Below are positions 3,606-59,409 of a stretch of 64,000 nt of DNA, in pieces (the stretch's first letter is position 1; every line of letters starts with the position of its first letter). Below the pieces are notes generated by a model. That model had not been told where the DNA came from, searched no databases, and saw nothing but the letters and a program-made list of their open reading frames with translations. Source of the DNA: Kutzneria chonburiensis (lineage in GTDB: Bacteria > Actinomycetota > Actinomycetes > Mycobacteriales > Pseudonocardiaceae); assembly GCF_028622115.1 (NCBI RefSeq), contig NZ_CP097263.1:4588001-4652000 (forward strand), read 5' to 3'. Made by a program: the position numbers and the translations under genes.

Positions 3606-4985
3606 GTGCCTTCGCTGCCGGACGACCCCAGTTTCGACCACCTCCGCCGTCAGGCGCGGGCGCTGCACCGCGCCGTTGTCGCCGGGGACGCTGACGCCCT
3701 GGCCCGCGTGCGGCGGTCCTACGGGACTTTCTCGCGATTCCCGCTGGCCACGGCCCAGCTGGTGGTGGCCCGTGAGTACGGGTTCGCCAGCTGGGCCCGG
3801 CTCAAGGAGCACGTGGCGGTCATCGACCGCTACCGCTGGCCGCGACGTAACGGCATGCCCGTTACGTCATCACCGTCGGACGAGTTCTGCCGGCTGGCCT
3901 GCCTGAACTACACCAACGACGACCCGGCATCCCGGGCCCGGGCGGTCCTGCCGGACGAGCCGCACATCTGGGCCGCCGCAGCGGCCGGCAACACCGCGCG
4001 CGTCGCCTCACTGTTGGCCGCCGACCCTTCGCTGGCGCGGCGTGAGGGCGGGCCGCACCTGTGGGAACCGTTGGCCTACCTGGCCTACTCCCGGGTCAGC
4101 CCCGGCGTGCCGCTGCTGACCGCGCGGCTCTTGCTGGACTACGGGGCGGATCCCAACACCGGGTACCTGTGGGGCGGGCTGCCGTCTCCGTTCACGCTGC
4201 TGACCGGGGTCTTCGGCGAGGGCGAGCAGGGTGCCGACCGGCAGCCCCGGCACCCACAGTCGTTGGCGCTGGCCGAGATGCTGTTGCGGGCCGGGGCCGA
4301 TCCCAATGACAGCCAGACGTTGTACAACCGCCAGTTCAACGCCGACGACTCCCATTTGACGCTGTTGTTCCGCTACGGGCTCGGGCGGGGCGACGGCGGT
4401 CCCTGGCGGGCGCGGCTGTCGTTGCCGTCGCCGCCGGAACTGATGGCCACGCAGCTGCGGTGGGCCGTGACGCATGATCAGCGGGATCGGGTGCGGCTCA
4501 TGGTGTCCGAGGGCGTCGAGTTCCGTACCGGTTTCGTGGAACTGGCCCTGGTCAACGGAAACACCTCGGTGGCCGAGTTTCTGCGATCGGCCGGAGCTGT
4601 GGAACCGGTGCTGGATCCGGTGTCCTCGTTCGTGGCCGCCGTCCTCAGCGGCGGCTCGTTCGATCCCGCCGTCGTGTCTTCGGCACTGGCCGCCCGGCCC
4701 GGCCTGGTGGTGTGGGCCGCCGCCAACGACCGGCTCGAAGCCGTGCGATTGTTGGTGTCACTGGGTTTCGACGTCAACACCCTCGGCCGCGGCGATGTGC
4801 CGCTGGAGCAGCCGTGGCAGACCGCGCTGCACACGGCCGCCGGCCGCGGCAACCTGGCCATGGCCGAGCTGTTGCTATCCCTGGGCGCGGACCCGTCGAT
4901 CCGTGACGCGCGGTTCGACGCCACTCCCCTCGGCTGGGCCGAGCACGAGGGACATGCCGAGCTCATCGCACTGCTGACTCCGTAG
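3606..4985 (+). CDS. Ankyrin-repeat protein
   Basis: Cytoplasmic protein of 459 residues with no signal peptide. The N-terminal 75 residues (FDHLRRQARAL, then FASWARLKEHV) form the short helical module often found in front of ankyrin repeats in actinobacteria. Ankyrin-type repeats follow around residues 160-240 (LLLDYGADPN, LLRAGADPN) and 370-459 (LLVSLGFDVN, LLLSLGADPS). Such proteins mediate protein-protein contacts; no enzymatic motif is visible. GTG start chosen because a perfect AAAGGAGG lies 5 bases upstream. That site is masked by an upstream hairpin, so expression is probably conditional. The 3' end overlaps the convergent SRPBCC gene by 23 bases. A 19-bp palindrome shared with other loci lies inside the gene at 3847-3865. 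Confidence 0.8.
   Translation: MPSLPDDPSFDHLRRQARALHRAVVAGDADALARVRRSYGTFSRFPLATAQLVVAREYGFASWARLKEHVAVIDRYRWPRRNGMPVTSSPSDEFCRLACLNYTNDDPASRARAVLPDEPHIWAAAAAGNTARVASLLAADPSLARREGGPHLWEPLAYLAYSRVSPGVPLLTARLLLDYGADPNTGYLWGGLPSPFTLLTGVFGEGEQGADRQPRHPQSLALAEMLLRAGADPNDSQTLYNRQFNADDSHLTLLFRYGLGRGDGGPWRARLSLPSPPELMATQLRWAVTHDQRDRVRLMVSEGVEFRTGFVELALVNGNTSVAEFLRSAGAVEPVLDPVSSFVAAVLSGGSFDPAVVSSALAARPGLVVWAAANDRLEAVRLLVSLGFDVNTLGRGDVPLEQPWQTALHTAAGRGNLAMAELLLSLGADPSIRDARFDATPLGWAEHEGHAELIALLTP
3847..3865. other. Dispersed palindrome GTAACG-N7-CGTTAC, copy 1 (exact)
   Basis: Exact copy inside the ankyrin gene. The arms extend by three more paired bases on each side (GAC/GTC), the longest arms among the eight copies. 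Confidence 0.7.
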
Positions 4986-5406
4986 TCGCCCGGTCGGCGA
5001 GGCCCTGCACGAACTGTTCGGTGATTCGTTGCAGGGCCCGCCGGTACAGCCAGCCCATGCCCGGCACCTTGGCCCGGAACGTGGTGTGCCAGTGGATGTC
5101 CGTGCCGTCGCCGGCCGGCGTGAGGTCGATGTCGGCGCGGTAGTCGCGCAGGGCAAGGCCGGCCAGCAGGGCGTAGCTGAAGCGGCGCTCCGGCACGATC
5201 TCGACGATCTCCTCGCGCATCAGGTAGCGCCCGGTGCGGAAGTTCCGGATCGCGCCGACGCTCTCGCCGCCGTCCGGTCCAGGTCGTTCCAATGTGAAGC
5301 TTTCCACCGTGCCCCACTCGGGCCAGGTCGAGCCGTCCCGCAGCAGGGCATGCACGGTCGCCGGGCTCGCCGCGGCGTGCGCTCTCGCCTCGATCCGCTT
5401 GGTCAT
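4963..5406 (-). CDS. SRPBCC (START-like) family protein
   Basis: Protein of 147 residues with the helix-grip fold of the polyketide cyclase/dehydrase and lipid-transport superfamily; usually binds a small hydrophobic ligand or modifies an aromatic substrate. It starts MTKRIEARAHAAASPATVHAL, with the typical WPEWGTVESFTLERPG loop around residue 35 and the C-terminal helix at residues 120-140. Its ATG begins directly at the edge of a 30-bp intergenic operator region shared with the divergent TetR gene, so the TetR protein very likely represses it. No ribosome binding site fits between operator and ATG, pointing to a leaderless transcript. Confidence 0.8.
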   Translation of the reverse strand: MTKRIEARAHAAASPATVHALLRDGSTWPEWGTVESFTLERPGPDGGESVGAIRNFRTGRYLMREEIVEIVPERRFSYALLAGLALRDYRADIDLTPAGDGTDIHWHTTFRAKVPGMGWLYRRALQRITEQFVQGLADRATTESAVR

Positions 5407-5436
5407 GTACCAAACGGTACACGTACCATCTGGTAC
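5407..5436. promoter_or_regulatory. Tandem TetR operators GTACC-N4-GGTAC
   Basis: The whole intergenic region between the divergent SRPBCC and TetR genes is two copies of a 14-bp palindrome: GTACCAAACGGTAC (5407-5420) and GTACCATCTGGTAC (5423-5436), 16 bp apart. The start codons of both genes touch the outer edges, so promoters must lie within the operators or the neighbouring gene and both mRNAs are probably leaderless. Confidence 0.8.
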
Positions 5437-5991: not shown

Positions 5992-6004
5992 CGATGTCTC
6001 GGTT

Positions 6005-6043
6005 TACCCACGCCGTATGGGTATGTTCACCCATTTTGTGAAC
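6005..6043. promoter_or_regulatory. Two adjacent inverted repeats upstream of the response regulator
   Basis: TACCCA-N7-TGGGTA (6005-6023) is followed after one base by GTTCAC-N7-GTGAAC (6025-6043). They lie 44-82 bases ahead of the ATG at 6087. Equal arm and spacer lengths suggest paired dimer-binding sites, possibly for the LuxR-type regulator itself. One could instead serve as a weak terminator of the TetR gene. Confidence 0.45.
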
Positions 6044-6086
6044 AACCTCTGGCGCGGTCCTCCGTGGTCACGCCAAGCTCCCGAGC

Positions 6087-6737: not shown

Positions 6738-6793
6738 CCCCCGCGAGTCCCGCTCTCCGTCACACCGAAACACGTTCCCAGGCACACGCGTCG

Positions 6794-6848: not shown

Positions 6849-6919
6849 GGGGCCAGCAGCTCGTCGGCGTCACGGGCGGTGGTGCGGAAGTGCCGGTGGC
6901 GTGGCGCGGTGGAAACCGC

Positions 6920-20440: not shown

Positions 20441-22257
20441 TCGTGCATCCTGCCCCGTCCCGTGCCGAGTGGGAACGCCTGGCCGACTCGATGCTGTTGG
20501 CCGTGCGCCCCTGGGCCACCGACACGCACGCACTGATCCACCTGCCCGGGCCGGTCAGCGTGAGCGGTCGCTGGAGCGACGGGTTGGAAGGCTACGCGCG
20601 CACGTTCCTGCTGGCGGCGTTTCGGCTGGCCGGGGCGGCCGGTGACGATCCACACAGGATCGCCGAGTGGTACGCGCAGGGGCTGGCGGCCGGCGTCGAC
20701 CCGACCAATCCCGACCGCTGGCCCCGGTTCGGCGAGTGCGGGCAGGCCAAGGTCGAGGCGGCGTCGATCGCCCTCGGGCTGCACCTGACCCGGCCGTGGC
20801 TGTGGGACCGGCTCAGCACGCGTACCCAGCAGGGGCTGCTGGACTGGCTGGCGCCGATGGTCGGCGACGCCATGCCGCAGAACAACTGGCTGTGGTTCCA
20901 GGCGGTCACCGGTGCGTTCGCCCGCAGCGTCGGCGGGGCGTGGAGCCAGGCCGACTTCGATCACGCGATCGAGTCCACGGATCGTTGGCAGGCGGGCGAA
21001 GGCTGGTACTCCGACGGCCTGTCCGGCGGCGCGCACCGCAACTTCGACCACTACAGCGGCTGGGCCATGCACTTCTACCCACTGCTGTTCTGCGACATCA
21101 CCGGCGACGAGGAGCTGGCCCTCCGGTACCGCAATCGCTTGCGGCTCTACCTTTCCGACTACGCGCGGCTGATCGGCGGCAACGGCTCGCCGCTGATCCA
21201 GGGCCGGTCGCTGACCTACCGTTTCGCCGCGCTCGCTCCACTGTGGATCGGCGCCCGCTACGACGCCACGCCGCTGGAGCCGGGGCTGACCCGGCGTATC
21301 GGCGGACTGATGCTGGACCACTTCCTCAACGCGGGTGCGCTGGATCACGACGGACTGCTGACCTTGGGCTGGCACGGCCGGTTCCCGGCCATCCGGCAGG
21401 TGTATTCCGGCCCCGCGTCGCCGTACTGGGCCAGCAAGGGTTTCGCCGGCCTGCTGCTGCCGGCATCGCATGAAGTCTGGACCGCGCCTGAGGTTCCGCT
21501 ACCGGTCGAGGAGGAGGACTTCGAGTTCTCCCTGCCGGCACCGGGCTGGACCGTTTCCGGCACCCGCGCGGACGGCGTGGTGCGGGTACTCAATCACGGC
21601 AGCGACCATATCGACCTCACGGAACTCGCGACCGACGATCCGGCTTACGCACGGATCGCCTACAGCACCCATGCCGCGCCGGAAATGACGCCACCGCTGG
21701 ACTCCTCGGCGACGCTCGTCGATGCCGACGGTCGGGCCGCGCATCGCCGGCCGCTGACGGCATTGACGCCCGGAGTGTCGCGCAGCCGGGCGCATTGGCC
21801 CGCAGATGAGAGCTGGAATCCCTTCCACAGCCCCGAAACCACGTATAGGCTGGGCCCGTGGATCACCGTAGCGTCGGTGATCCACGGTGCCACCGAGGTC
21901 CGGCTGGTCCGGGTCGACGAGGCTGCCGAGTGCACCCATCCCGGGCCGTGGCGGCTGCGGATCGGCGGCTGGGCCACGGTTCCCGGTAGTGGGCTGCACT
22001 CGTGCCTGGTCGATCTCGCCGGGCTCACCGTCGCCGAAACGGTGGTGGGCAAGGACACCAATCCACTGGGGCCGGTGTCCGAGGTCCCCGTGCTGTTCTC
22101 CGCCGACGAGGTCGAGGTCGGCCGGATCTACGCCGCCGCCGTGCATCTCGGCGGCTCCCCGCTGGAAGCGTTGCCGGAACTGGACATCACCGCCGCCGCT
22201 GTGGAGGTGCGGTGGCCGGACGGCCGTGTCGACCGGGTGGCGATGCCGCCCGGGTAA
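20437..22257 (+). CDS. DUF2264 domain protein
   Basis: Protein of 606 residues; GTG at 20437 overlaps the mannosidase stop as GTGA, and the longer frame upstream is spurious. The N-terminal 370 residues match DUF2264, an alpha/alpha-barrel-like family often found in carbohydrate loci (PQNNWLWFQAVTGAF, DGLSGGAHRNFDHYSGWAM, LIQGRSLTYRFAALAPL); the remainder is a beta-sandwich-like region. No signal peptide. Trp-rich and His/Asp-containing motifs suggest a glycan-active enzyme such as an unsaturated glycoside hydrolase or lyase, but no activity can be assigned from sequence. Confidence 0.8.
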   Translation: MIVHPAPSRAEWERLADSMLLAVRPWATDTHALIHLPGPVSVSGRWSDGLEGYARTFLLAAFRLAGAAGDDPHRIAEWYAQGLAAGVDPTNPDRWPRFGECGQAKVEAASIALGLHLTRPWLWDRLSTRTQQGLLDWLAPMVGDAMPQNNWLWFQAVTGAFARSVGGAWSQADFDHAIESTDRWQAGEGWYSDGLSGGAHRNFDHYSGWAMHFYPLLFCDITGDEELALRYRNRLRLYLSDYARLIGGNGSPLIQGRSLTYRFAALAPLWIGARYDATPLEPGLTRRIGGLMLDHFLNAGALDHDGLLTLGWHGRFPAIRQVYSGPASPYWASKGFAGLLLPASHEVWTAPEVPLPVEEEDFEFSLPAPGWTVSGTRADGVVRVLNHGSDHIDLTELATDDPAYARIAYSTHAAPEMTPPLDSSATLVDADGRAAHRRPLTALTPGVSRSRAHWPADESWNPFHSPETTYRLGPWITVASVIHGATEVRLVRVDEAAECTHPGPWRLRIGGWATVPGSGLHSCLVDLAGLTVAETVVGKDTNPLGPVSEVPVLFSADEVEVGRIYAAAVHLGGSPLEALPELDITAAAVEVRWPDGRVDRVAMPPG

Positions 22258-22273
22258 CTTTACTGGGAGGTCA

Positions 22274-37803: not shown

Positions 37804-38352
37804 ATGAGCTACCTGCGCGGATTCGTCCCCTGGATCGCCTTCGCGGTGCTGTCCGGCCTGGGCTGGCAGTGGGGCGCGCTGGCCGGCCTGGTCCTGGCGG
37901 TGGCGCTGTTCGCCGACGGACGCCGCAAGGGCACGCCGCTGGACACGCAGGTGCTGGAGATCAGCACGATGGCCTACTTCGGCGTGCTAACGGTCTATGC
38001 GTTACTTGTCCCGACCTCGCCGGTGCAGCACTTCGTCGGCGCGATCTCGATGGCCTGGCTGGCCCTGACGGCCTGGGGCGGCCTCGCCGTAAAGCAGCCG
38101 TTCACGCTGGGTATCGCCAAGCAGCAGACGCCCAAGGAGTTCTGGGGCCACCCGCTGTTCCGGCGGATCAACGTGGTGATCACCACGGCCTGGGCCACCG
38201 CGTTCACCTTGACGGCCATCGTGCTCACCGGCCTCGACCTGGTGAACGCCGGCACCGTGGCGGCGATCCTGGTGCAGGTGGCCGGCTTCGCCATCCCGGC
38301 GATCTTCACGGTTCGCTACCCGGAGCACGCTCGCGCCCGGCAGGATTCGTGA
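37804..38352 (+). CDS. Small integral membrane protein, function unknown
   Basis: Protein of 182 residues with five to six hydrophobic segments and short polar loops (ADGRRKGTPLD, KQQTPKEFWGHPLFRRIN). No catalytic motif recognised. ATG preceded by GAGGAG. It is divergent from the PadR gene across twin operators and is followed after one base by the class V aminotransferase gene. A rare TTA codon (codon 67) falls within a copy of the dispersed GTAACG palindrome. Confidence 0.75.
   Translation: MSYLRGFVPWIAFAVLSGLGWQWGALAGLVLAVALFADGRRKGTPLDTQVLEISTMAYFGVLTVYALLVPTSPVQHFVGAISMAWLALTAWGGLAVKQPFTLGIAKQQTPKEFWGHPLFRRINVVITTAWATAFTLTAIVLTGLDLVNAGTVAAILVQVAGFAIPAIFTVRYPEHARARQDS
37987..38005. other. 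Dispersed palindrome, copy 4 (CTAACG-N7-CGTTAC)
   Basis: One mismatch in the outermost base of the left arm. Lies inside the membrane protein gene and forces a TTA codon. Confidence 0.6.
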
Positions 38353-49292: not shown

Positions 49293-50156
49293 TCAGGGCA
49301 GGTACTTGGGCGCGAAGTCCTTGATCAGGGCCGCGATGACCGGGGCCTGCGACACCAGGGCGAAGTGGCCGGCGTCGAGCAGGTGGATCTGGGCGTCGGG
49401 CACGTCCCGGGCGAAGGCGCGAGCGCCGTCGGGGCCGAAGATCTGGTCGTTGCGGCCCCACACGGCCAACACGCCGGGGTGGCGCTCACGCAAAAATGCC
49501 TGCCAAGCGGGGTAGAGCGGCGGATTGGTGCGGTAGTCGTGAAACAACCGGAGCTGCACTTCGCGGGCACCGGGGCGGGCCAAGAGTGCGTTGTCGAGGG
49601 CGATGGCGTCGGGACTGACGAGTTCGGGGTCGGGCTCGCCGTGCAGGTACTGCCAGACGGTGACCTCGGGGGCCAAAGCGGCGGCAACGGGAGCCTCGGT
49701 GGTGGGGTTCCAGTCAGCCCAGAACTCCCGCAGCGGGGCCCAGAACTCGGGGACCAGGCCCTCGTCGTAGGCATTGCCGTTCTGGGTGATGATCGCCCGT
49801 ACCTGGTCGGGGCGCTTGAGCGCGAGCCGGAAGCCGACTGGCGAGCCGTAGTCCTGCACGTAGATGCCGAAGGTGCCGAGTCCGAGCTGGTCGACGAACT
49901 TGTCGATCACCTCGGCCAGGTGGTCGAAGCTGTAGTCGAACTCCTCGACGGTGGGCATGTCGGACTGGCCGAAGCCGGGCAGGTCGGGGGCGATCAGGTG
50001 GAACTCGTCGGCCAGCGCCGGGATCAGGTCGCGGAACATCACCGACGAGGTCGGGAAGCCGTGCAGGAGCAGCAGCGTGGGCCGGTCCGGGTCGCCGGCC
50101 TCCCGGTAGAACACCGACAGCCCGTCGACGGTCGCCCTGCGGTACCGGATCGCCAT
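49293..50156 (-). CDS. Alpha/beta hydrolase with Asp nucleophile (epoxide hydrolase / dehalogenase type)
   Basis: Hydrolase of 287 residues. The nucleophile elbow reads YVQDYGSPVGFRLA (Asp, about residue 102), and HGFPTSS is the oxyanion motif; the catalytic His is in LDAGHFALVS (about 265). Asp in the elbow indicates epoxide hydrolase or haloalkane dehalogenase chemistry rather than an esterase. It is divergent from a CGNR zinc-finger regulator across two palindromic operators, so it is presumably that regulator's target. The substrate is unknown. Confidence 0.85.
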   Translation of the reverse strand: MAIRYRRATVDGLSVFYREAGDPDRPTLLLLHGFPTSSVMFRDLIPALADEFHLIAPDLPGFGQSDMPTVEEFDYSFDHLAEVIDKFVDQLGLGTFGIYVQDYGSPVGFRLALKRPDQVRAIITQNGNAYDEGLVPEFWAPLREFWADWNPTTEAPVAAALAPEVTVWQYLHGEPDPELVSPDAIALDNALLARPGAREVQLRLFHDYRTNPPLYPAWQAFLRERHPGVLAVWGRNDQIFGPDGARAFARDVPDAQIHLLDAGHFALVSQAPVIAALIKDFAPKYLP

Positions 50157-50175: not shown

Positions 50176-50232
50176 ATAACGCCCTGTGCGTTACTTTGGC
50201 GACCGTAGCACAGGTAACGCCTTATGCGTTAC
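50176..50232. promoter_or_regulatory. Paired TAACG-N7-CGTTA operators between hydrolase and CGNR genes (copies 5 and 6)
   Basis: Copy 5, ATAACG-N7-CGTTAC (50176-50194, one mismatch), and copy 6, GTAACG-N7-CGTTAC (50214-50232, exact), lie 38 bases apart in the 86-base divergent region. Both spacers start C and end G, extending the arms to 7 bp. This is the only place where the dispersed palindrome is intergenic and duplicated, which suggests the CGNR protein is its binder. Confidence 0.7.
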
Positions 50233-50242
50233 TCTCTCCGAC

Positions 50243-50752
50243 GTGACGACGTTTCCACTGGTCGGCGAGCCGCTGGCGGTCGACCTGGCCAACACGGCGG
50301 TCCGGCTCCGCGGCCGCGAGGTCGACCTGATCGCCGACGATGAGGGGCTGGCGGCCTGGCTCGAGCTGCACCCGGGCATCGGCAAGGTCGACGGTGACGA
50401 GGTCCGGGCGCTGCGCGACGACATCCGCGAGGTCTTCCGCGCGGCCATCGAGACCCGGTCCGCCGCCCACGAGGCCGTCCAGAACATCAACCGGGCCGCC
50501 TTCCGCTGTCAGACCACCCTCACGTCCACTCCGGACGGCCCGGTGGTCGAGTGGGGCGGCGGCGGTCTCTCCGTGATCGCCCGCTCCGCGGTCGAGGTCG
50601 TGGCGGCGGCCCACGTGCGGGGCTGCGCCAACCACGACTGCGTGCTGGTCTTCGCCCAGGGCGACGAACGGCGCCGGTTCTGTGACACCAAGACCTGCGC
50701 CAACCGCGCCCGCCAGGCCCGCCATCGCGAACGGCAACACGTCCAGGCATGA
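50243..50752 (+). CDS. CGNR zinc-finger domain regulator
   Basis: About 169 residues. N-terminal ABATE-type domain (TTFPLVGEPLAVDLANTAV) and C-terminal CGNR zinc finger with four Cys: RGCANHDC and FCDTKTCANRARQARHR (here CANR instead of CGNR). Such proteins are putative ligand-binding transcription factors. GTG at 50243 gives the family start; the earlier ATG at 50186 lies inside an operator. Divergent from the epoxide hydrolase-type gene. A strong hairpin terminator follows immediately. Confidence 0.85.
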   Translation: MTTFPLVGEPLAVDLANTAVRLRGREVDLIADDEGLAAWLELHPGIGKVDGDEVRALRDDIREVFRAAIETRSAAHEAVQNINRAAFRCQTTLTSTPDGPVVEWGGGGLSVIARSAVEVVAAAHVRGCANHDCVLVFAQGDERRRFCDTKTCANRARQARHRERQHVQA

Positions 50753-50786: not shown

Positions 50787-50802
50787 CCGCTGCTGTAGGG
50801 GG

Positions 50803-51219
50803 TCAGCAGCGCTTGCTGGTCTCCGCGCCGCCATAGTCCTTGCCGGCGCTGTAGATCAGGCCGTCCGCACGCGTGCACACGCTCAGCGTGTTCGTGCCGT
50901 ACGACCAGTTCTCACGGGCGCCCTTGGCGCTCACCGTGTAGCCCAACGGATCCGTGCCCGCGTCGATCGAGCTGGCCACGTAGTAGTCCGAGTGGTTGGC
51001 CCGGAACTGGTCCCACACGTAGGTGTACGCCCAGTTCTGGTTGCAGCCCTTGAACTGCTTCACCGACGCGATCGTCTGACCGCCGTACGTGATGTACGCC
51101 GTCGACCCGATCTGCACCGTGCTCGAGCATCCCGGCGGCGTCTCGGCCTGCGCCACACCAGAACCCAGACCGGCGACGGTCAACGCGGCCGCCACGGCCG
51201 CGACTCCGAGGAACTTCAC
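50803..51219 (-). CDS. Small secreted four-Cys protein, family A member 1
   Basis: 138 residues: signal peptide (VKFLGVAAVAAALTVAGLGS, cut after AQA) and a mature domain of about 113 residues with four Cys placed as in all family A members (PGC, KGC, SVC, and C as the very last residue), so two disulfides are likely. The conserved core reads STVQIGSTAYITY and SVKQFKGC, then YTYVW. GTG start follows AAGGAGAG. Last of nine tandem genes in one leftward operon. Mature part up to about residue 69 is identical to member 2. No function recognised. Confidence 0.8.
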   Translation of the reverse strand: MKFLGVAAVAAALTVAGLGSGVAQAETPPGCSSTVQIGSTAYITYGGQTIASVKQFKGCNQNWAYTYVWDQFRANHSDYYVASSIDAGTDPLGYTVSAKGARENWSYGTNTLSVCTRADGLIYSAGKDYGGAETSKRC

Positions 51220-51230
51220 AACTCTCCTTC

Positions 51231-51650
51231 TCAGCAACGCTTGCTGGTCTCAGCGCCGCCAAGCAGGTTGCCGCCGACGATCCAGATCGCCCCGGCCGCC
51301 TGCGTGCAGACGCTCAGCGTGTTCGTGCCCTGCGACCACAGCTCGTGCGCGCCCCGCCCGCTCACCTGGTATCCGAGCGGGTCGCTGCCCGCGTCGATGT
51401 AGGTGTCGATGGTGTAGTCCGTGCGCTTCGACCGGAACTGGTCCCACACATACGTGTAGGCCCAGTTCTGGTTGCAGCCCTTGAACTGCTTCACCGACGC
51501 GATCGTCTGACCGCCGTACGTGATGTACGCCGTCGACCCGATCTGCACCGTGCTCGAACAACCAGGCGCCGACTCCGCCTGCGCCACACCAGAACCCAGA
51601 CCGGCGACGGTCAACGCGGCCGCCACGGCCGCGACTCCGAGGAACTTCAC
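51231..51650 (-). CDS. Small secreted four-Cys protein, family A member 2
   Basis: 139 residues with the same signal peptide and start context as member 1, 11 bases upstream of it. Four conserved Cys, C-terminal ETSKRC. The 5' half of the gene and the gap before it are nearly identical in DNA to member 1, showing a recent tandem duplication or gene conversion; the last 70 residues differ (DYTIDTYIDAGSDPLGYQV). The longer frame upstream runs out of frame through member 3 and is spurious. Function unknown. Confidence 0.8.
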   Translation of the reverse strand: MKFLGVAAVAAALTVAGLGSGVAQAESAPGCSSTVQIGSTAYITYGGQTIASVKQFKGCNQNWAYTYVWDQFRSKRTDYTIDTYIDAGSDPLGYQVSGRGAHELWSQGTNTLSVCTQAAGAIWIVGGNLLGGAETSKRC

Positions 51651-51661
51651 AACTCTCCTTC

Positions 51662-52075
51662 TCAGCAACGCGTGTCCGTCATGGCCGAGTAGTGGTCGTA
51701 CCCGATGATCGAGATCAGGCCGTAACCGGCGGTGCACTCCGACAACGTGTCGGTGCCCGTCGACCACAACTCGGTCGCACTGTCGAGGTCGGTCGTGTCG
51801 CCCTGGAACGCGTTGCGCGGGCCGGGGTTGACGTTCACCGCCGCGAGGAGGTACCAGTGCAGACCGCGCTGACGGAAGCTGTCCCAGACGTAGATGTAGC
51901 CCCAGTTCTTGTTGCAGCCCTTGAACTGCTTCACCGAGGCGATGGTCTTCCCCTGGAACGTGACGTACGCCGTCGAGCCGATCTGCACCGTGCTCGAACA
52001 ACTCGGCGCCGACTCCGCCTGCGCCACACCCGCCCCGAGACCGCCGATCACCAGCGCGACCGCGGCGGCCGCCAC
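51662..52075 (-). CDS. Small secreted four-Cys protein, family A member 3
   Basis: 137 residues with family core TVQIGSTAYVTF and SVKQFKGCNKNWGYIYVW and C-terminal TDTRC. The predicted start (GTG 52075) gives a signal peptide of only about 20 residues, VAAAAVALVIGGLGAGVAQA, with no basic residue at its N terminus, unlike all siblings; no in-frame alternative start was found upstream. GAGG eight bases ahead may serve as ribosome binding site. Secretion may therefore be weaker. Function unknown. Confidence 0.75.
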   Translation of the reverse strand: MAAAAVALVIGGLGAGVAQAESAPSCSSTVQIGSTAYVTFQGKTIASVKQFKGCNKNWGYIYVWDSFRQRGLHWYLLAAVNVNPGPRNAFQGDTTDLDSATELWSTGTDTLSECTAGYGLISIIGYDHYSAMTDTRC

Positions 52076-52085
52076 AGTGAGGGCC

Positions 52086-52514
52086 TCAGCATCGCTTGTC
52101 CGTCTGGGCCACGTAGTTGTCGAACTGGTAAAGGGAGATCACGCCGTAGCCGGCGGTGCAGTCCGACAGCGTGTCGGTGCCACCGGACCACAGCTCGACC
52201 GGGTCGTCCCCCTTGTCCGTGCCACCCTTGTACGTGGCGTTCGGACCGGGATTCACCGCGACGGCGGCGGTGAGCCGGTAGTGCAGGCCCCGCTGACGGA
52301 AGCTCTCCCACACGTAGATGTAGCCCCAGTTCTTGCCGCAGCCCTTGAACTGCTTCACCGAGGCGATGCTCTTGCCCTGGAACGTGGCGTACGCGGTCGA
52401 TCCGATTTGGACGGTGCTCGAGCACCCGGGCGCGGACTCCGCCTGTGCCACGCCCGCCCCGAGACCACCCGCCACCAGCGCCAACGACGCCGCGGCGGCC
52501 AACAGGAACTTCAC
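52086..52514 (-). CDS. Small secreted four-Cys protein, family A member 4
   Basis: 142 residues: signal peptide starting VKFLLAAAASLALVAGGLGA, cleavage after AQA, then the family core with four Cys and C-terminal TDKRC. Closest to member 3 (both have RQRGLH and a VNPGP turn). GTG start with GAGGGG nine bases upstream. Fourth from the operon's 3' end. Function unknown. Confidence 0.8.
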   Translation of the reverse strand: MKFLLAAAASLALVAGGLGAGVAQAESAPGCSSTVQIGSTAYATFQGKSIASVKQFKGCGKNWGYIYVWESFRQRGLHYRLTAAVAVNPGPNATYKGGTDKGDDPVELWSGGTDTLSDCTAGYGVISLYQFDNYVAQTDKRC

Positions 52515-52525
52515 GCTTTCCCCTC

Positions 52526-52951
52526 TCAGCAACGCCATCCGGTCTTCGCGTCGACGGAACCGCTGGTGCCGAACTGGATGTAGCCCGCCGCCGCCGTGCA
52601 CGCGTCCAGCGTGTTCGTGCCCTCCGACCACACCTCGACCGGGCTGCCGGTCTTGTCCACGTCGCCCCACGACATACCGCCGTCGAACTGCACGTAGACC
52701 GAGGCGTGGGCCCGATAGGCGATGTGCCGGTCGCGGAAGCTCTCCCACACGTAGGTGTAGGCCCAGTTCTTGCCGCAGCCCTTGAACTGCTTCACCGAGA
52801 TGACGTTCTGACCCTGGTACTGGCCATAGGCGGTCGATCCGATTTGGACAGTGCTCGAACAGCCGGGTGCCTGCTCGGCCTGCGCCACACCGGAACCGAG
52901 TCCGGTCACCACCAAGGCCGCCGCCGTGACGGCGGCCAACGCGAGCTTCAT
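52526..52951 (-). CDS. Small secreted four-Cys protein, family A member 5
   Basis: 141 residues: signal peptide MKLALAAVTAAALVVTGLGS, family core with TAYGQYQGQNVISVKQFKGC, four Cys and C-terminal KTGWRC. Closest to member 6 (shared GQYQGQNVISV and DKHIAY/DRHIAY). ATG start with GAGGGG upstream. A much longer frame running upstream through other members is spurious. Function unknown. Confidence 0.8.
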   Translation of the reverse strand: MKLALAAVTAAALVVTGLGSGVAQAEQAPGCSSTVQIGSTAYGQYQGQNVISVKQFKGCGKNWAYTYVWESFRDRHIAYRAHASVYVQFDGGMSWGDVDKTGSPVEVWSEGTNTLDACTAAAGYIQFGTSGSVDAKTGWRC

Positions 52952-52962
52952 TGCTTCCCCTC

Positions 52963-53385
52963 TCAGCAACGCCAGCCCGTCGAGGCCTGGACGACGTTCT
53001 CGTTGCCGAACGCCAGCATTCCCTCGGCCTGGGTGCACACGGTCAGCGTGTCCGTGCCCTTCGACCACAGCTCCACCGGGCTCCCGGACTTGTCGACCTC
53101 GCCCTGGACCAACTCGGCGTCGTCGTACTGCGCGTTGACGAAAGCGCTCGCCGAGTAAGCGATGTGCTTGTCCCGGAAGCTCTGCCACACGTAGATGTAC
53201 GACCAGTTCTTGCCGCAGCCCTTGAACTGCTTCACCGAGATGACGTTCTGGCCCTGGTACTGACCATAGGCGGTCGCTCCGATTTGGACAGTGCTGGCAC
53301 AGCCCGGGGCGGTCTCGGCCTGCGCCGTGCCCGCACCGACCGTCGCCAACGCCAGGACTCCCATGGCGCACAACAGTTTCCGCAT
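52963..53385 (-). CDS. Small secreted four-Cys protein, family A member 6
   Basis: 140 residues: signal peptide MRKLLCAMGVLALATVGAGT (cut after AQA), family core and four mature Cys, C-terminal STGWRC. The signal peptide carries one extra Cys. Five bases separate its start from the stop of member 7. Function unknown. Confidence 0.8.
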   Translation of the reverse strand: MRKLLCAMGVLALATVGAGTAQAETAPGCASTVQIGATAYGQYQGQNVISVKQFKGCGKNWSYIYVWQSFRDKHIAYSASAFVNAQYDDAELVQGEVDKSGSPVELWSKGTDTLTVCTQAEGMLAFGNENVVQASTGWRC

Positions 53386-53390
53386 CACGG

Positions 53391-53834
53391 TCAGCACCTG
53401 ATCGATGTGTGGTTGTCGGGGGTGTGATCGGCGCCGTCGATGACGACAGCGCCGAACGCGGCCGTGCAGGTGTCGAGCGTGTCCGTGCCGGTCGACCACA
53501 GCTCGCGCTGGTTGTGGTGGCCGATCGTGAGCCCCAGGTAGCGGTCGGCCTCCTGCTGGCTGGCGCTGCCGAACGCGCCGATCGCCGTGCGCAGGGTGAA
53601 GCCCTTGCCGCTGTCCACGAAACCCTGCCAGGCGTACACGTACGCCCAGTTCTTGCCACAGCCCTTGAACTGCTTGACCGAGGCGATGTGCTGGCCGCCG
53701 TAGTCGACGTACGCCGTCGAGCCGATCTCCACCGTGCCCGAGCAGCCGGGCGCGGACTCGGCCTGTGCGGTGCCCGTGGTGGCCAGCAGCGCCGCGAACG
53801 CCGCCAGCACGACCGCGATCATTCCAGTCTTCAT
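53391..53834 (-). CDS. Small secreted four-Cys protein, family A member 7
   Basis: 147 residues: signal peptide MKTGMIAVVLAAFAALLATT (cut after AQA), family core slightly diverged (SGTVEIGSTAYVDYGGQHI), four Cys, C-terminal TSIRC. The most divergent and first-transcribed family A member. ATG at 53834 is preferred over the in-frame GTG at 53843 because AAGGGTG precedes it. Function unknown. Confidence 0.8.
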   Translation of the reverse strand: MKTGMIAVVLAAFAALLATTGTAQAESAPGCSGTVEIGSTAYVDYGGQHIASVKQFKGCGKNWAYVYAWQGFVDSGKGFTLRTAIGAFGSASQQEADRYLGLTIGHHNQRELWSTGTDTLDTCTAAFGAVVIDGADHTPDNHTSIRC

Positions 53835-53857
53835 GCGGATCACCCTTCGACGCGCGC

Positions 53858-54259
53858 TCAGCCGCAGTGTTCCCAGCCGCTCAACCAGATGTCGTCACGG
53901 GACATGCCGCCCCACTTCACGCAGTGCCCCCTGGCCGGGCCGGCGCCGGAGGCGTAGTACTCGTACTTGCCCGGGTCGTCGTAGGAGCCGGGCGGGTTGG
54001 TCTGGGTCTCGAGCATGGCCGAGATGTCGGTCCTGGTGCCGACGTCAGACGTCTTGATCGTGACGACGCAGTTCCAGGAACCGTTGTACATCAGGTAAAC
54101 CGTCGCGCCGGAGAGGGCGTGCTGGTCGATGACGTGGTAGCTCGACCCGCAGACGCCGGTCGGCGTGTACGGGTTGGTCGCGGCGCTCGCCGGCGCGGCG
54201 AAGGCGACCGTGGAGGCCAGCGCCGCGGCGATGCCCGCGGTGGCGATCAGCTTGTTCAT
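53858..54259 (-). CDS. SapA-like (spore-associated protein type) secreted protein, family B member 1
   Basis: 133 residues: signal peptide MNKLIATAGIAAALASTVAF (cut after ASA) and a mature domain resembling spore-associated protein A of Streptomyces: NPYTPTGVCGSSYHVID, TVYLMYNGSWNCVVTIK, GHCVKWGG and a C-terminal WEHCG. Four Cys suggest two disulfides. ATG preceded by GAGGGGAAAGAA. Second gene of the leftward operon. The biochemical role of SapA-type proteins is not established. Confidence 0.82.
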   Translation of the reverse strand: MNKLIATAGIAAALASTVAFAAPASAATNPYTPTGVCGSSYHVIDQHALSGATVYLMYNGSWNCVVTIKTSDVGTRTDISAMLETQTNPPGSYDDPGKYEYYASGAGPARGHCVKWGGMSRDDIWLSGWEHCG

Positions 54260-54280
54260 TTTCTTTCCCCTCAAACAATC

Positions 54281-54685
54281 TCAGCCGCAGTGGCCCCAGG
54301 CCGACGTCTCCCAGATGGAGTTGCCCTCCATGCCGCCCCACTTGATGCAGACGCCGGGCGCACGCACCCTGGACGCCGCGTAGTAGGCGTAGTAGCCCTC
54401 GTCATCGGCGACCTGCACCGGATTCGAGGCCACCTCGAGGATCGACTCGGTGTCGGTCTTGGTGCCGATGGCGGCGGTCTTGATGGTCACGACGCAGTCC
54501 GTGGCGCCGTCGTACATCAGGTAGACCGTGGCGCCGGTCAGCGCGTGGTGGTCCAGCTCGTGGTAGCCCGAACCGCAGACGCTGCCCGGCGTGTACGGAT
54601 TCGTGGCCGCGCTCGCCGGTGCGGCGAAGGCGATTCCCGCCGCCAGCGTCGCGGCGATGGCCATCGCTCCGGTCAGCTTGTTCAT
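54281..54685 (-). CDS. SapA-like secreted protein, family B member 2
   Basis: 134 residues, clear paralogue of the previous gene: signal peptide MNKLTGAMAIAATLAAGIAF, then NPYTPGSVCGSGYHELD, TVYLMYDGATDCVVTIK, CIKWGGM and C-terminal WGHCG, with four Cys. It is the first gene of the nine-gene operon and faces the SARP regulator across 254 bases that hold GTGAC repeats. ATG follows GAGGGGATG. Confidence 0.82.
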   Translation of the reverse strand: MNKLTGAMAIAATLAAGIAFAAPASAATNPYTPGSVCGSGYHELDHHALTGATVYLMYDGATDCVVTIKTAAIGTKTDTESILEVASNPVQVADDEGYYAYYAASRVRAPGVCIKWGGMEGNSIWETSAWGHCG

Positions 54686-54815: not shown

Positions 54816-54939
54816 TTCACCGCACCCGAGCGTGATTCGGCTGCTGGCGGTGCCCGGCACGGAACGCTGACTTTTCGCTGACGCCCCGGGGTACAGTCGC
54901 GTTTGTTCGAACCCGTTCGAGTTGTGCGCAGTGGGGGCC

Positions 54940-57921
54940 ATGTCCGGAATCGGCTGGGAGTTCGGCGTGCTCGGGCCGCTGATGGCGCGACGCGACGGCC
55001 GAACGGTGCAGTTGCGTTCGGCCAAACAGCAGCTGCTGCTGGCGGTGTTGTTGTTGCGCGCCAACGAACCCGTCTCCGTTGACGACCTGGTCGACCGGCT
55101 GTGGGGCGAGGATCCGCCGGACGGCGCCCGCGCCACGGTGCAGACGCACGTGATGCGCCTGCGCAACAGCCTCGGCGACAGTTCGCTGGTGCGCACGGTT
55201 CCCGGCGGCTATTCGATCCGGATCGAGCCGGACGCGCTGGACCTGACCCGGTTCGAACGGCTGCGATCGCAGGCCCGGCAGGCGGAACGCGGCGGGGACA
55301 CCGCCGAGGAGTCACGGCTGCTGAGCGAGGCGCTGGCGCTGTGGCGCGGGCCGGCGTTCACCGGACATCCGACCGAGTCGCTACGCCTGGACGAGCGCCG
55401 CTGGGACGCGGTGGAGCGGCGCAACGAGGTCGAGCTACGGCTCGGCCGGCACGACGCGCTCGTCGACGAGCTGCGCTCACTAGTAACGCAACAACCGTTA
55501 CGTGAGCGGTTCTGGGCCCAGCTCATCCTCGCGCTGCACCGCGGCGGCCAGCAGGCCCAGGCCCTGGACGCGTACCGGCGCTGCTGCGAAGTGCTGGCCG
55601 ACGAGCTCGGTATCGACCCGAACGCCGAGCTCAGGGCGTTGCACCAGGCTGTGTTGGGCGACTCGGCCGCGCCGGCCGACATCCCACAGCGGCCGGAGCC
55701 GGCCTGGGCGCCGCGCTGCGAGCTGCCGCCGGCCGTGGCCACGCTGGCAGGCCGCACCGAGGACATCGTCCGGATGACCCACAGCCTGCGGGCCGAGCGG
55801 GATGCCCACCGGGTGTGGGTGATCACCGGCCCCGGCGGCGTCGGCAAGACCAGCCTCGCCGTGCACGTCGCGCACCTGGTGCGCAGCTGCTACCCGGACG
55901 GCCAGCTGTACCTCGACCTGCGCGCGCAGGATTGTCCGGTGGAGCCGGCGGAGGCGTTGGACCGGCTGCTGCGCGGCCTCGGCACGCCCGGCGCCGCGAT
56001 CCCGGCAACGCTGGACCAGCGGGTCGCGCTGTACCGGGACCGGCTGGCCGACCGGCGGATCCTGGTCGTGCTGGACAACGCCGCGACCGAGGCCCAGGTC
56101 CGCCCCCTGCTGCCGGGCACGACCACGTCCGCGGCCCTCGTGACGAGCCGCGCCGCGCTGGCCAGCCTGGAGGCCCAGGTCCTGCCGTTGGAGGTGCTGA
56201 CGCCCGGCGACGCCGTGCGCATGCTGACCGAGGCGCTGGGCGAGGCCCGGGTGAACGCGGAGCCGGAAGCCGCCGAGCAGCTTGCCGACTACTGTGGGCG
56301 ACTGCCGCTGGCGCTGCGCGTGGCGGCGGCACGGCTGGTCGCACGGCCGCACTGGCGGCTGACGCAGCTGGTCACACGCCTGTCGGACGAGCGCCGTCGG
56401 CTGGACGAGCTGCGGTTCGGCGACCTGGATGTACGGGCCAGTCTCACGCTGAGTTACCGGGAGCTGGCCGAGCCGCAGCAGCGGGCGTTCCGGCTGCTGG
56501 CCCGGCTGGACACGCCGGACTTCCCGGCCTGGGTGGCCGGGCCGCTGCTCGGTGTCGACCCGGACACGGCCGAGGACCACGTGGAGGCGCTGGTCGACGC
56601 CCGGTTGGTGGAGACCGTCGGCTGGGACGCGCTCGGGCAGACCCGGTACCGCCTGCACGACCTGCTCCGGGTGTTCGGCCGCGACCTCGGCGACGTCGAC
56701 GACGCGCCGCTGGTCGCACTGATGGACCAGTGGGTGGCGCTGGTCGAGTGCGCCGACCACAAGATCGCGCAGCGCGGCCCGCGCCTGCCCGGCGGCGACG
56801 CCGGCGTGCTGGGTGAGCGGCTGCTTTCCGACCCGACCGGCTGGTTCGACGCCGAGTGGACGACGCTCGGCGGCGTGATCACGCAGTGTGTCGCGCTGGG
56901 GCTGGCCGAGCAGACGACCCGGCTGGCCGTCGCCGGCGCCGCCGTCTGCGACCTGCGGGCCCGGTTCGACGACTGGGAGCACGACAACGGGCTCGGCCTG
57001 GACGCCGCGGTCGGGGCGACGCCGGCCGAGGCGATTCTCGTGCAGCAGCGCGGACTGCTGCACAGCCGGCGGCACCGGTTCGCCGAGGCCCAGCGCGACT
57101 TCACCCGGTCGAAGGACGTCTTCGAGTACCTGGAGGACGCCGACGGCGCCGGCTACGCCTGGCACGGCATCGGCTGGATGCACGAGTGGCTTGGGCGGCA
57201 GGCCGAGGCCAAGACGTGCCACGAGATGGCGATGCGGCGCTTCGAGACCGCCGGCAACCGGCACGGGCAGGTCGACGTGCTGTGCTCACTGGGCGCGATC
57301 GAGCGGCGGGCGGGTCGGTCGTCCGAGGCTGAGGCGTATCTGAGGCAGGCTCGTGAAACCGCCGCCGAGCTGGGTGACCGGATGGGCATGCTGTCCGCGG
57401 CGCTGGAGCTGGGCCGGGTGTTGCAGGCGCGCGGCGAGCTGTCCGGGGCCGTTGAGCACATCCACGCCAGCCTGACCGACGCGCACCGGCTCGGTGACCC
57501 CGATCTGGTGGCCAATCTGCGGCTGACGTTGGCCGAGACGTACCTGCGGATGGGCGCGAAGGACACCGCGCGCACCGAGGTGCAGCAGGCGCTGGTGTTC
57601 TTCGACGAGCACGACGACGTGGCCGGCAAGGCGTGGGCGTGGCGGCTGCTGAGCTGGGTCGGGCTGCTGACCAACTCGCCGGAATCGGCGCTGGCGCTGG
57701 CCGAGCGGGCCGTCGCGACGGCCGAAGGCCTTGGCCTGCCGCAGGAACACGCCCGGGCGCTGCGGCAGCTCGGGATGGTGCTGCACGAGGCGGGCAAGCT
57801 GGAGGACGCCGCTTTGTGTTGGCGGCAGGCCGAAATCTTGCTCGACAACGCCGGTTTCCACGCCGAGGCCGCCGAGATCCGTGCTCACTCCGGCACGGCC
57901 GCCGAGGGTTCCAACGTGTAG
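54940..57921 (+). CDS. SARP/AfsR-type regulator (OmpR-like DBD, BTAD, NB-ARC, TPR)
   Basis: About 993 residues. Winged-helix DNA-binding domain (about 1-85; VQLRSAKQQLLLAVLLLRAN), bacterial transcriptional activator domain (about 92-240), NTPase of the STAND/NB-ARC type with Walker A GPGGVGKTS (about 297-305) and Walker B ILVVLDNA (about 370), and C-terminal TPRs (about 690-985). Such proteins activate secondary metabolism or secreted protein genes. Its divergent position marks the nine-gene array as the probable target. Codon 187 is TTA (55498-55500), so translation may depend on the bldA tRNA. ATG at 54940 is preferred; GTGs at 54922 and 54931 are possible. The 3' end overlaps the phosphoesterase gene by 37 bases. 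Confidence 0.88.
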   Translation: MSGIGWEFGVLGPLMARRDGRTVQLRSAKQQLLLAVLLLRANEPVSVDDLVDRLWGEDPPDGARATVQTHVMRLRNSLGDSSLVRTVPGGYSIRIEPDALDLTRFERLRSQARQAERGGDTAEESRLLSEALALWRGPAFTGHPTESLRLDERRWDAVERRNEVELRLGRHDALVDELRSLVTQQPLRERFWAQLILALHRGGQQAQALDAYRRCCEVLADELGIDPNAELRALHQAVLGDSAAPADIPQRPEPAWAPRCELPPAVATLAGRTEDIVRMTHSLRAERDAHRVWVITGPGGVGKTSLAVHVAHLVRSCYPDGQLYLDLRAQDCPVEPAEALDRLLRGLGTPGAAIPATLDQRVALYRDRLADRRILVVLDNAATEAQVRPLLPGTTTSAALVTSRAALASLEAQVLPLEVLTPGDAVRMLTEALGEARVNAEPEAAEQLADYCGRLPLALRVAAARLVARPHWRLTQLVTRLSDERRRLDELRFGDLDVRASLTLSYRELAEPQQRAFRLLARLDTPDFPAWVAGPLLGVDPDTAEDHVEALVDARLVETVGWDALGQTRYRLHDLLRVFGRDLGDVDDAPLVALMDQWVALVECADHKIAQRGPRLPGGDAGVLGERLLSDPTGWFDAEWTTLGGVITQCVALGLAEQTTRLAVAGAAVCDLRARFDDWEHDNGLGLDAAVGATPAEAILVQQRGLLHSRRHRFAEAQRDFTRSKDVFEYLEDADGAGYAWHGIGWMHEWLGRQAEAKTCHEMAMRRFETAGNRHGQVDVLCSLGAIERRAGRSSEAEAYLRQARETAAELGDRMGMLSAALELGRVLQARGELSGAVEHIHASLTDAHRLGDPDLVANLRLTLAETYLRMGAKDTARTEVQQALVFFDEHDDVAGKAWAWRLLSWVGLLTNSPESALALAERAVATAEGLGLPQEHARALRQLGMVLHEAGKLEDAALCWRQAEILLDNAGFHAEAAEIRAHSGTAAEGSNV
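55483..55501. other. Dispersed palindrome GTAACG-N7-CGTTAC, copy 7 (exact)
   Basis: Exact copy in the BTAD-coding part of the SARP gene. In frame it spans an unusual run of A/T-containing codons and includes the gene's TTA codon. Confidence 0.7.
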
Positions 57922-58616
57922 ATGCGGTACGCGGCCTGGATCACCGGCTGGGCAACGTTGCGGACGCGCACGCCGCCGGCGGTGGTGCCGGCCTCGCTGC
58001 CGTAGTGCGCGTGCCCGTGCACGGCCAGATCGGTTGCGCTGTCGTCGATCGCCTCGGCCAGCAGGTACGAGCCGAGGAACGGGAAGATCTCCGGCGGCTC
58101 GCCGCGCAGCGTGTCGGCCGACGGCGAGTAGTGCGTCAGCGCGATCCGCACGTCGGCGGTCAGGCCCAGCAGCGCGGTGCGCAGCTGTTCGGCGATGTCC
58201 TCGCTGTGGTGGATGAACGCCTTCATCTCACGCTCGCCGAAGGCATGCCCGCACTTGCCGGCAAAACCGCCGCCGAAGCCCTTGGCGCCGGCGATCCCGA
58301 CCCGGACATCGTTGACCTGCACCACGGTTCCGCTGCCTTCGAGCACGGTGATGCCGCGGTCGGCCAGCAGCGCGGCGATCTTGTCCTCGGCGTCGGACTG
58401 GTGATCGTGGTTGCCCAGCACCGCGACGACCGGCACGTCCAGGCCGGCGAACTCGTCGGCCACCACCTCGCCTTCGGCGACCGTGCCGAGGCGGGTCAGA
58501 TCACCGGCCAGCAGCAGCAGATCCGCTTGCTCGGCAATGTTTTCGTAGGCCGGGCGCAGGGTTCCCCTGGTGTCGACGCCGAGATGCACGTCGCCGACCG
58601 CGGCGACCCGGATCAT
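57885..58616 (-). CDS. Metallophosphoesterase
   Basis: Calcineurin-like phosphoesterase of 243 residues with the full set of metal motifs: VGDVHLG, LLAGDLTRLG, VLGNHDHQ, ALTHYSP and VHGHAHYG. It hydrolyses phosphomonoesters or phosphodiesters; the target is unknown. ATG overlaps the BON gene stop as ATGA, so it ends a leftward operon with a BON protein, a nucleotidyltransferase, a DNA ligase and a second phosphoesterase. Confidence 0.88.
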   Translation of the reverse strand: MIRVAAVGDVHLGVDTRGTLRPAYENIAEQADLLLLAGDLTRLGTVAEGEVVADEFAGLDVPVVAVLGNHDHQSDAEDKIAALLADRGITVLEGSGTVVQVNDVRVGIAGAKGFGGGFAGKCGHAFGEREMKAFIHHSEDIAEQLRTALLGLTADVRIALTHYSPSADTLRGEPPEIFPFLGSYLLAEAIDDSATDLAVHGHAHYGSEAGTTAGGVRVRNVAQPVIQAAYRIYTLEPSAAVPE

Positions 58617-58861
58617 CGCAGGTCCTCCTGTTCGGTCGGCGGTTGTGCCCCGACGATGTGCACCTCGTTGTGCAGCACCAAACCGTCCGCGTGCTCGGCG
58701 GCCACCTCGGCCACCGCCGCGCGACGCTGCTCACACGCCACGTCGCCGGACAGGAACAGCTGATCGCCGCGGATCCGCACGTGGACGCCCAGTTCGGCGG
58801 TCCGCGGGTCCTCGGCGAGCGCGCGGCACAACGCCGCCACGTCGTACTGCGGCACGTTCAC
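58613..58861 (-). CDS. Small BON-domain protein
   Basis: 82 residues, GTG start overlapping the nucleotidyltransferase stop as GTGA. The sequence HVRIRGDQLFLSGDVACEQRRAAV with VLHNEVHIVG is a BON-like alpha/beta fold (phospholipid or small-ligand binding). No signal peptide, so probably cytoplasmic. The longer frame upstream is spurious. Confidence 0.75.
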   Translation of the reverse strand: MNVPQYDVAALCRALAEDPRTAELGVHVRIRGDQLFLSGDVACEQRRAAVAEVAAEHADGLVLHNEVHIVGAQPPTEQEDLR

Positions 58862-59409
58862 GGCACGACCTCCTCGATGTCCAATCGCTTGAGCAGCAAC
58901 AGAAACGCTTCCGCATAGGGTGATTCGACGGTGCGGTCCCACACCTGCTTCCAGTCCACCTGCTCGCGCAGCGCCCGCGCGATCGGCAGCAGCTCGGTGA
59001 AATCGCAGCGGTGTGGCCCGAACACCTTGAGCTTGTCCACCATCAGGTCCGTGGCGGTGGCGACCGGCATCTCCGCCGGCCCCACCCGCATGTGCTCGGC
59101 CCGCTTCAGCACGTCGTCCGTAACGGGTTCACCGTTAGGATGGTGCAGCAGGTCGACCAGCCGGTCGCCGTCGTACACCTTGGCCAGCCAGTCCAGCGGC
59201 GTTTCGGCGGCGCGCAGGCCGGACGCCACCAGGGCGCTCACCGCCCGCGACACGTCCCGTTCGCGGACCAGCACGTCCACGTCGTGTGTGGTCGGCGGGC
59301 CGCCCCTGGCGTACACGGCGCAGCCGCCGGTCAGTGCGAACGGCACCTCCGTGGCCGTCAGCGTGTTCGCGACCTTGGCCAGCGACCGCAGCAGCTCCTT
59401 CTGCTCCAC
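58858..59409 (-). CDS. Nucleotidyltransferase-fold protein
   Basis: Protein of 183 residues with the nucleotidyltransferase start: FALTGGCAVYARGG followed by THDVDVLV (GG, then the metal-binding DxD). It lacks a strong second half typical of polymerases. Similar proteins act as MNT-type antitoxins or unknown nucleotidyltransferases. Positioned between a DNA ligase and a BON protein. A copy of the dispersed palindrome with one mismatch lies at 59120-59138. Confidence 0.78.
   Translation of the reverse strand: MEQKELLRSLAKVANTLTATEVPFALTGGCAVYARGGPPTTHDVDVLVRERDVSRAVSALVASGLRAAETPLDWLAKVYDGDRLVDLLHHPNGEPVTDDVLKRAEHMRVGPAEMPVATATDLMVDKLKVFGPHRCDFTELLPIARALREQVDWKQVWDRTVESPYAEAFLLLLKRLDIEEVVP
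59120..59138. other. Dispersed palindrome, copy 8 (GTAACG-N7-CGTTAG)
   Basis: One mismatch in the outermost base of the right arm; inside the nucleotidyltransferase gene. Confidence 0.6.

Follow-up and report, generated by a model that had tools for sequence, protein, structure and literature searches.

In E. coli, the nucleoid-occlusion protein SlmA recognizes a palindrome (GTGAGTACTCAC) that is present in 50 copies, mainly in coding sequence and absent from the terminus, and the protein itself is structurally related to transcription regulators (PMC3116907). The same source describes the MatP/matS system of the E. coli Ter macrodomain, in which the 13-bp matS site has 23 copies in the terminus (PMC3116907). 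In actinobacteria, the sequence-specific nucleoid protein Gbn (SCO1839) has a genome-wide word, GATC followed by (A/T)T (PMC9239103). The ABATE/CGNR family has a solved member, Jann_2411 (PDB 3h0n), which is described as dimeric and as having a putative site for binding DNA (PMC2954205), and a search of the literature, seen partly in extract, found no described DNA binding site or target for this family. Here, we analyzed a 64-kb stretch of the Kutzneria chonburiensis chromosome, hereafter the window, that carries a dispersed 19-bp palindrome, GTAACG-N7-CGTTAC, together with a gene for a 169-aa regulator with ABATE and CGNR zinc-finger domains (50243-50752, plus strand). Sequence comparison indicates that this regulator is very probably the binder of the palindrome. 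We propose that an operon regulator's operator spread as chromosomal sites that avoid the replication origin, and we put the probability of this whole explanation at about 0.6.

The operator lies in the promoter region of the regulator gene. It consists of an exact proximal copy (50214-50232), 10 bp upstream of the CGNR start codon, and a distal copy with one mismatch, ATAACG-N7-CGTTAC (50176-50194), 38 bp away. The start at 50243 is supported by alignment with relatives, and the pair is therefore intergenic. In the open frame 50186-50752, Pfam identifies ABATE (PF07336; 3e-17, 63.9 bits against a cut-off of 24.4) and zf-CGNR (PF11706; 1.5e-10, 41.1 bits against a cut-off of 24). On the other side of the pair is a divergent alpha/beta hydrolase gene (49293-50156, minus strand; Abhydrolase_1, 1.4e-35), the predicted regulated partner.

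How general is the association between this site and a CGNR gene? A close pair of sites was examined in 15 genomes, and in every one it adjoins a CGNR gene. The 15 comprise five Kutzneria genomes and ten others, five of which also belong to a set of 14 genomes searched with zf-CGNR; a further genome with two sites, G436, is outside the count. Of these 14 genomes, 10 hold a close pair, with one CGNR gene beside the pair in 10 of 10. Outside Kutzneria, a CGNR open frame lies directly beside the site at 18 of 36 site loci, a tally that excludes a stretch without a site (L137). This holds for all 10 two-site loci, in which the copies are 26-39 bp apart, and for 8 of 26 single-site loci, these eight being the ones fetched of 29 single-site genomes of genus g16. 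The remaining 18 single-site loci, without a CGNR frame, look like chance occurrences. The operator has two copies in most genomes examined and one in genus g16, and in most genomes it is the only convincing site.

The regulators beside the operator form two clades that share it, although members of the second are only 28-31% identical to the window protein. The zinc-binding cysteines (C128, C133, C147, and C152) and several finger arginines are invariant in 14 of 14 regulators. The divergent partner was compared with Pfam at 10 of the 18 CGNR-adjacent loci outside Kutzneria and is either carboxymuconolactone-decarboxylase-like (8) or phosphotriesterase-like (2), so that the ligand may be lactone-like or aromatic. 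Moreover, a separate CGNR paralogue has a sister operator, GTAACC-N8-GGTTAC, directly before its ATG in three of three Kutzneria genomes (loci L144, L157, and L159 in K. chonburiensis, CA-103260, and sp. 744, respectively), with a spacer one base longer than that of the N7 operator. No common palindrome was found among the other CGNR paralogues scanned. We take GTAAC to be a half-site common to at least the CGNR groups with the N7 operator and the N8 paralogue operator. The operator is found across genera and names the probable binder, and from the genome comparison we assign it to the ABATE/CGNR regulator with high confidence.

The window holds eight copies of the palindrome. They are exact at 3847, 24831, 34652, 50214, and 55483 and carry a single mismatch, at the outermost base in each, at 37987, 50176, and 59120; a ninth match, at 31455, has two mismatches and is within chance expectation. 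None of 100 dinucleotide shuffles of the window reached nine matches at up to two mismatches (mean 1.19, largest 6). Synonymous resampling of the window's open reading frames (ORFs), which are simple calls based on GC content at third codon positions (GC3) and not an annotation, gave a mean of 0.003 exact copies and a maximum of 1 in 300 runs, against five observed. That count of five treats the operator copy at 50214 as lying within an ORF, and the whole-genome ORF tally given below excludes it. Three sites (34652, 37987, and 55483) force a TTA codon, and TTA accounts for 10 of 1881 leucine codons across the window ORFs. An original prediction made from the window had listed these eight copies, placed six of them inside unrelated genes, estimated a chance expectation near 0.001, and pointed to three forced TTA codons as rare ones; each of these statements was borne out, with ORF calls and Pfam supporting the gene placements and the estimate close to the resampled mean. 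Scans of the window with Rfam and for tRNA genes returned no matches.

The excess extends over the whole genome, a single contig of 10,411,187 bases (10.41 Mb); the K. chonburiensis SMC256 chromosome is given as circular (PMC10232511). The genome contains 48 exact copies of GTAACG-N7-CGTTAC. Across spacers of 0-30, 48 of 51 copies have N7, with one each at N8, N9, and N23 and none at N6, so the constant spacer of 7 noted in the original prediction holds genome-wide. The reversed control word occurs once at N7 and five times summed over the same spacers. Allowing up to one mismatch, there are 88 copies against 11 of the control, and by our own arithmetic, from half-site density in 380 kb sampled, about 0.02 exact N7 copies are expected per genome. 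Chance and codon usage are ruled out as the source of the copies by the shuffles, the spacer counts, and the synonymous resampling. MtrA-type direct repeats were considered and set aside, as the palindrome is an inverted repeat.

The core word TAACG-N7-CGTTA is found 84 times in K. chonburiensis (G000), the 48 exact copies and 36 others, operators included. Seven core sites with both outer bases changed were excluded from all site tables for this genome, leaving 77 examined; such sites were retained in the counts for Kutzneria sp. 744 (G002) and Kutzneria sp. CA-103260 (G006). Elsewhere in the genus, core sites number 2 in K. buriramensis (G001), 14 in sp. 744, 3 in G003, 0 in G004, 0 in G005, and 26 in CA-103260, against 1, 1, 0, 1, 0, and 3 copies of the reversed control, respectively. 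In a survey of 390 Pseudonocardiaceae genomes, exact matches occurred in 66, and the number exceeded five in just two of them, K. chonburiensis (48) and CA-103260 (11). In four genomes of genus g16 (G089, G021, G059, and G110), the reversed control word CATTGC-N7-GCAATG itself reaches 48, 27, 12, and 3 copies; we set this apart as a separate dispersed near-palindrome with a nearly fixed middle, mostly one of a small number of forms (AAATTT-like or GCTAGAC-like).

Where are the sites that do not belong to the operator? In K. chonburiensis, 70 of 75 non-operator sites are inside called ORFs. The 70 occupy two stop-avoiding reading phases (38 and 32), and 32 of them force TTA. A protein motif as the cause is ruled out by the two phases and by the unrelated host proteins. 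The earlier claim that selection acts on the DNA word is upheld. The six site-bearing ORFs in the window are mutually unrelated by Pfam. Outside it, 37 of 39 host ORFs (38 with an exact site and one that overlaps such a site) have Pfam matches without a functional theme, in families that include non-ribosomal peptide synthetases (NRPSs), polyketide synthases (PKSs), ABC and MFS transporters, a histidine kinase, glycosidases, proteases, and oxidoreductases. In a set of 45 exact sites without duplicates, one of them an operator copy, 74% have A/T at the spacer center and 82% have C/T at position 8.

To place the sites along the chromosome, we used dnaA as the origin proxy and its antipode as the terminus. 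In K. chonburiensis the gene is at 7.40 Mb, in CA-103260 at 8.78 Mb, and in sp. 744, where it was the best of five matches, at 5.85 Mb. Distances were tested in the three genomes with at least 12 non-operator sites (72, 24, and 12 sites, respectively, duplicates removed); G001 and G003 had too few. For K. chonburiensis, 72 of the 77 examined sites were used, after removal of two operator copies and three duplicates, namely two of three tandem copies 135 bp apart and one of two NRPS copies. Distance from dnaA departs from expectation in all three genomes (Kolmogorov-Smirnov [KS] p of 1e-4, 3e-6, and 0.03, respectively). In all three, the largest site-free gap holds dnaA, at 1.73 Mb in K. chonburiensis (chance 0.0002), 5.67 Mb in CA-103260 (0 in 20,000 trials), and 4.27 Mb in sp. 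744 (0.08). With exact sites alone, the empty stretch in K. chonburiensis is 2.39 Mb. When the distance from dnaA to its antipode is divided into fifths in this genome, the four outer ones hold 70 of 72 sites and the one at the antipode holds 16 of 72; it is the origin side that is empty. Base composition is unsupported as a cause of the gap, as the density of half-sites near the origin (10.5 per 100 kb) is no lower than elsewhere (7.8 per 100 kb) in the 380 kb sampled. Likewise, places where the word could be written synonymously numbered 7 in 200 kb near the origin and 1 in 180 kb elsewhere, in what is a small sample.

Alignment of the window with four relatives (G001, G002, G003, and G006) separates the operator from most of the scattered copies. 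At the place of the distal operator copy (50176), an exact copy is present in all four. The proximal copy (50214) has no change at its 12 motif positions in any of the four, whereas its flanks differ at 21-43 of 200 positions; over both copies, relatives differ at 4% of motif positions (8 alignments). The site at 24831 is unchanged in G002 and G003, with flanks 19-23% changed where the motif is kept, and has 3 changes in G006 and 5 in G001. The site at 55483 is exact in G002 and absent from G001, the only two genomes aligned there. The other four are absent from every aligned relative: 3847 from four of four (5-6 of 12 motif positions differ), 34652 from four of four, 37987 from two of two, and 59120 from three of three, where one or two residues also differ across the site. 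At these four, motif positions differ at 37% against 14% for flanks (13 alignments), some of this excess being expected from the choice of the sites in K. chonburiensis. Conservation at orthologous positions, proposed as a check in the original prediction, is thus mixed: it is strong at the operator pair, partial at 24831 and 55483, and lacking in the aligned relatives for the rest; the proposed codon-model count, run on the window ORFs, and the comparison with N6 (0) and N8 (1) spacers both leave the prediction standing.

Relatives' alignments are gap-free over the 19 bp in 25 of 27 cases, the other two, at 3847, having a one-base gap, and they differ by substitutions. By this comparison, sites in the window arise in place by point substitution, with some of them kept, and the intragenic copies are mostly lineage-specific. 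The same alignments make inserted mobile repeats, such as REP-like elements or transposon ends, extremely unlikely, as do the spacers and flanks that vary between copies, for all that the copies are dispersed over one genome. The substitution history could be read in the window only, since a 16-kb stretch from a chromosome arm (L034) has no clear orthologues, and its matches in five relatives are all diverged, at 83% over some 130 bp and at 64-77% where they are longer. Elsewhere, an intragenic site of K. chonburiensis at 2704253 has a counterpart in CA-103260 at 4289835 with the same flanks.

Altogether, we propose that an ABATE/CGNR dimer binds the palindrome, with each finger reading one GTAAC(G) half-site, the two being about 13 bp apart. 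In its ancestral role, the protein would use the copies in the divergent promoter to control its own gene and the neighboring enzyme gene, probably as a ligand-released repressor. Single copies may then have arisen in unrelated genes of K. chonburiensis, and to a lesser extent of CA-103260 and sp. 744, and been kept, with hardly any around the replication origin. We consider it likely that the 50243 protein occupies the scattered copies too. The original prediction of a genome-wide site for a dimeric protein stands as regards the geometry, the fixed spacer, and the indifference to host gene; what it missed is that an ABATE/CGNR regulator within the window itself has two of the copies as its promoter operator. 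As to use, we tentatively favor fixed, protein-bound marks on the origin-distal chromosome, by analogy with SlmA and MatP, as the likeliest single role, although we would not put it at even odds. It is the layout, with origin avoidance in three species and unrelated host genes, that suggests a nucleoid or chromosome-organizing function; a global regulator, the other suggestion of the original prediction, could also be at work. A lineage of Kutzneria could possibly be converting a zinc-finger regulator of a local operon into a system that marks the chromosome away from the origin, its operator word having entered dozens of unrelated genes, with stages of 14, 26, and 84 core sites, operators included.

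Several observations, given here and with the alternatives below, weigh against this explanation. In K. chonburiensis, the sites are found beyond the terminus side as well, and the gap in sp. 744, a draft assembly, is not significant by itself (0.08). The few core sites in close relatives (3 in G003, 14 in G002, 2 in G001) make a conserved essential role unlikely. The structure model of the window protein is weak (mean predicted local distance difference test score [pLDDT] 68), with a poorly modeled finger region (about 38-48); its best Foldseek match is 3h0n (probability 0.99, E 0.016, TM 0.47), and phmmer against solved structures gave no meaningful match for the regulator, 3h0n not being among the matches listed. 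Finally, nine non-operator sites lie within 100 kb of the regulator gene against 1.4 expected, and seven within 250 kb against 2.8 expected when the window is excluded. Such crowding is predicted neither by chromosomal marks nor by the transcriptional roadblocks considered next.

Could the gene-body sites instead be an expanded regulon, in which the CGNR dimer represses dozens of genes as a ligand-released roadblock to transcription? The site is in the first 60% of 49 of 61 complete host ORFs (KS p 0.003; 47 of 59, p 0.005 without duplicates), a 5' lean that fits roadblocks better than marks, and the hosts include NRPSs, PKSs, transporters, and regulators. However, the host ORFs have no functional theme, promoters are not favored (5 of 75 non-operator sites fall outside called ORFs), and the scattered copies occur singly, unlike most operators, which come in pairs. 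We consider this unlikely, although it is the main alternative.

Another explanation is that origin avoidance has no function, with sites merely tolerated in weakly constrained accessory genes away from the origin and bound without consequence. Intragenic binding without known effect has been discussed for other factors (PMC6397444), and the diverged matches of L034 mean that some arm genes are accessory. Tolerance alone, however, cannot yield 48 copies where chance gives about 0.02, the window sites sit in ORFs that can be aligned with relatives, and, in small samples, neither half-sites nor synonymous capacity is lower near the origin. We regard this account as doubtful, and a little more so than the roadblocks.

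The gene-body sites might also belong to another protein, for example a second CGNR paralogue, leaving the 50243 protein with the promoter pair only. The K. chonburiensis genome has 14 CGNR genes, a paralogue has the related N8 operator, and an A/T spacer center is present in 32 of the 44 exact copies that are scattered, compared with 16 of the 38 at operators. A second site near a scattered one was found once among the 72 (1528787/1528818). The different center, together with the single rather than paired layout, makes a different protein with a similar half-site possible. Nevertheless, the scattered sites and the operator have the same exact arms and exact N7 spacer, the sites crowd around the 50243 regulator gene, and both genomes with more than five exact sites hold a 50243-type operator. 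Another binder thus seems improbable, more so than either roadblocks or functionless sites.

The six intragenic sites of the window are in varied company. Exact copies lie at 3847-3865 in an ankyrin-repeat ORF (3606-4985) and at 24831-24849 in a large pectate-lyase-like/F5-F8 ORF (21887-25993). Exact, TTA-forcing copies are at 34652-34670 in a molybdopterin/flavodoxin oxidoreductase ORF (33123-37046, minus strand) and at 55483-55501 in a BTAD/NB-ARC/TPR regulator (54922-57921). Copies with one outer mismatch are at 37987-38005, also TTA-forcing, in an ORF without a Pfam match (37804-38352), and at 59120-59138 in a nucleotidyltransferase-like ORF (58858-59409, minus strand). The window also has a run of small ORFs (about 130-220 aa) at 50803-54685, some segments of which align to each other in the relatives, and, over its whole length, seven occurrences of a CAGTTC-N14 inverted word. 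As to the duplicates, an FG-GAP repeat ORF (L028:3589-4488) has three palindrome copies 135 bp apart, and two sites 3 kb apart on the K. chonburiensis contig C1 (1497275 and 1500232), the first in an NRPS ORF, share the same spacer and similar flanks, probably through module duplication.

What would these sites mean? As far as our literature search, drawn partly from extracts, showed, this is the first proposed DNA target for the ABATE/CGNR family. It also provides a set of related genomes where the operator of a promoter seems to be spreading through gene bodies in a pattern that avoids the origin, such that the rise of chromosome-territory proteins like SlmA from transcription regulators could be studied directly in Kutzneria. 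If the chromosome-marking reading is true, a protein family unrelated to MatP and SlmA would have produced a layout like theirs, and the related species would show it at different stages.

Compared with the described systems, the Kutzneria sites are like those of SlmA in having tens of exact copies (48), in lying mainly in coding sequence (70 of 75), and in leaving one part of the chromosome empty. However, SlmA sites avoid the terminus, whereas Kutzneria sites avoid the origin, with 16 of 72 in the antipode fifth, and SlmA is a TetR-like protein, whereas the Kutzneria protein is of the ABATE/CGNR family. The likeness to MatP/matS lies in a short, scattered palindrome that marks out one territory of the chromosome, but the protein is a different one and the sites extend well beyond the terminus. 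In K. chonburiensis, 18 of 72 lie in the half nearer the origin; CA-103260, with 1 of 24, comes closer to the MatP pattern. Gbn likewise has a genome-wide recognition word in actinobacteria, although a far shorter one. Finally, Jann_2411 shares both Pfam domains, ABATE and CGNR, with the window protein, and to this family, for which our literature search found no DNA target, our analysis adds a proposed operator.

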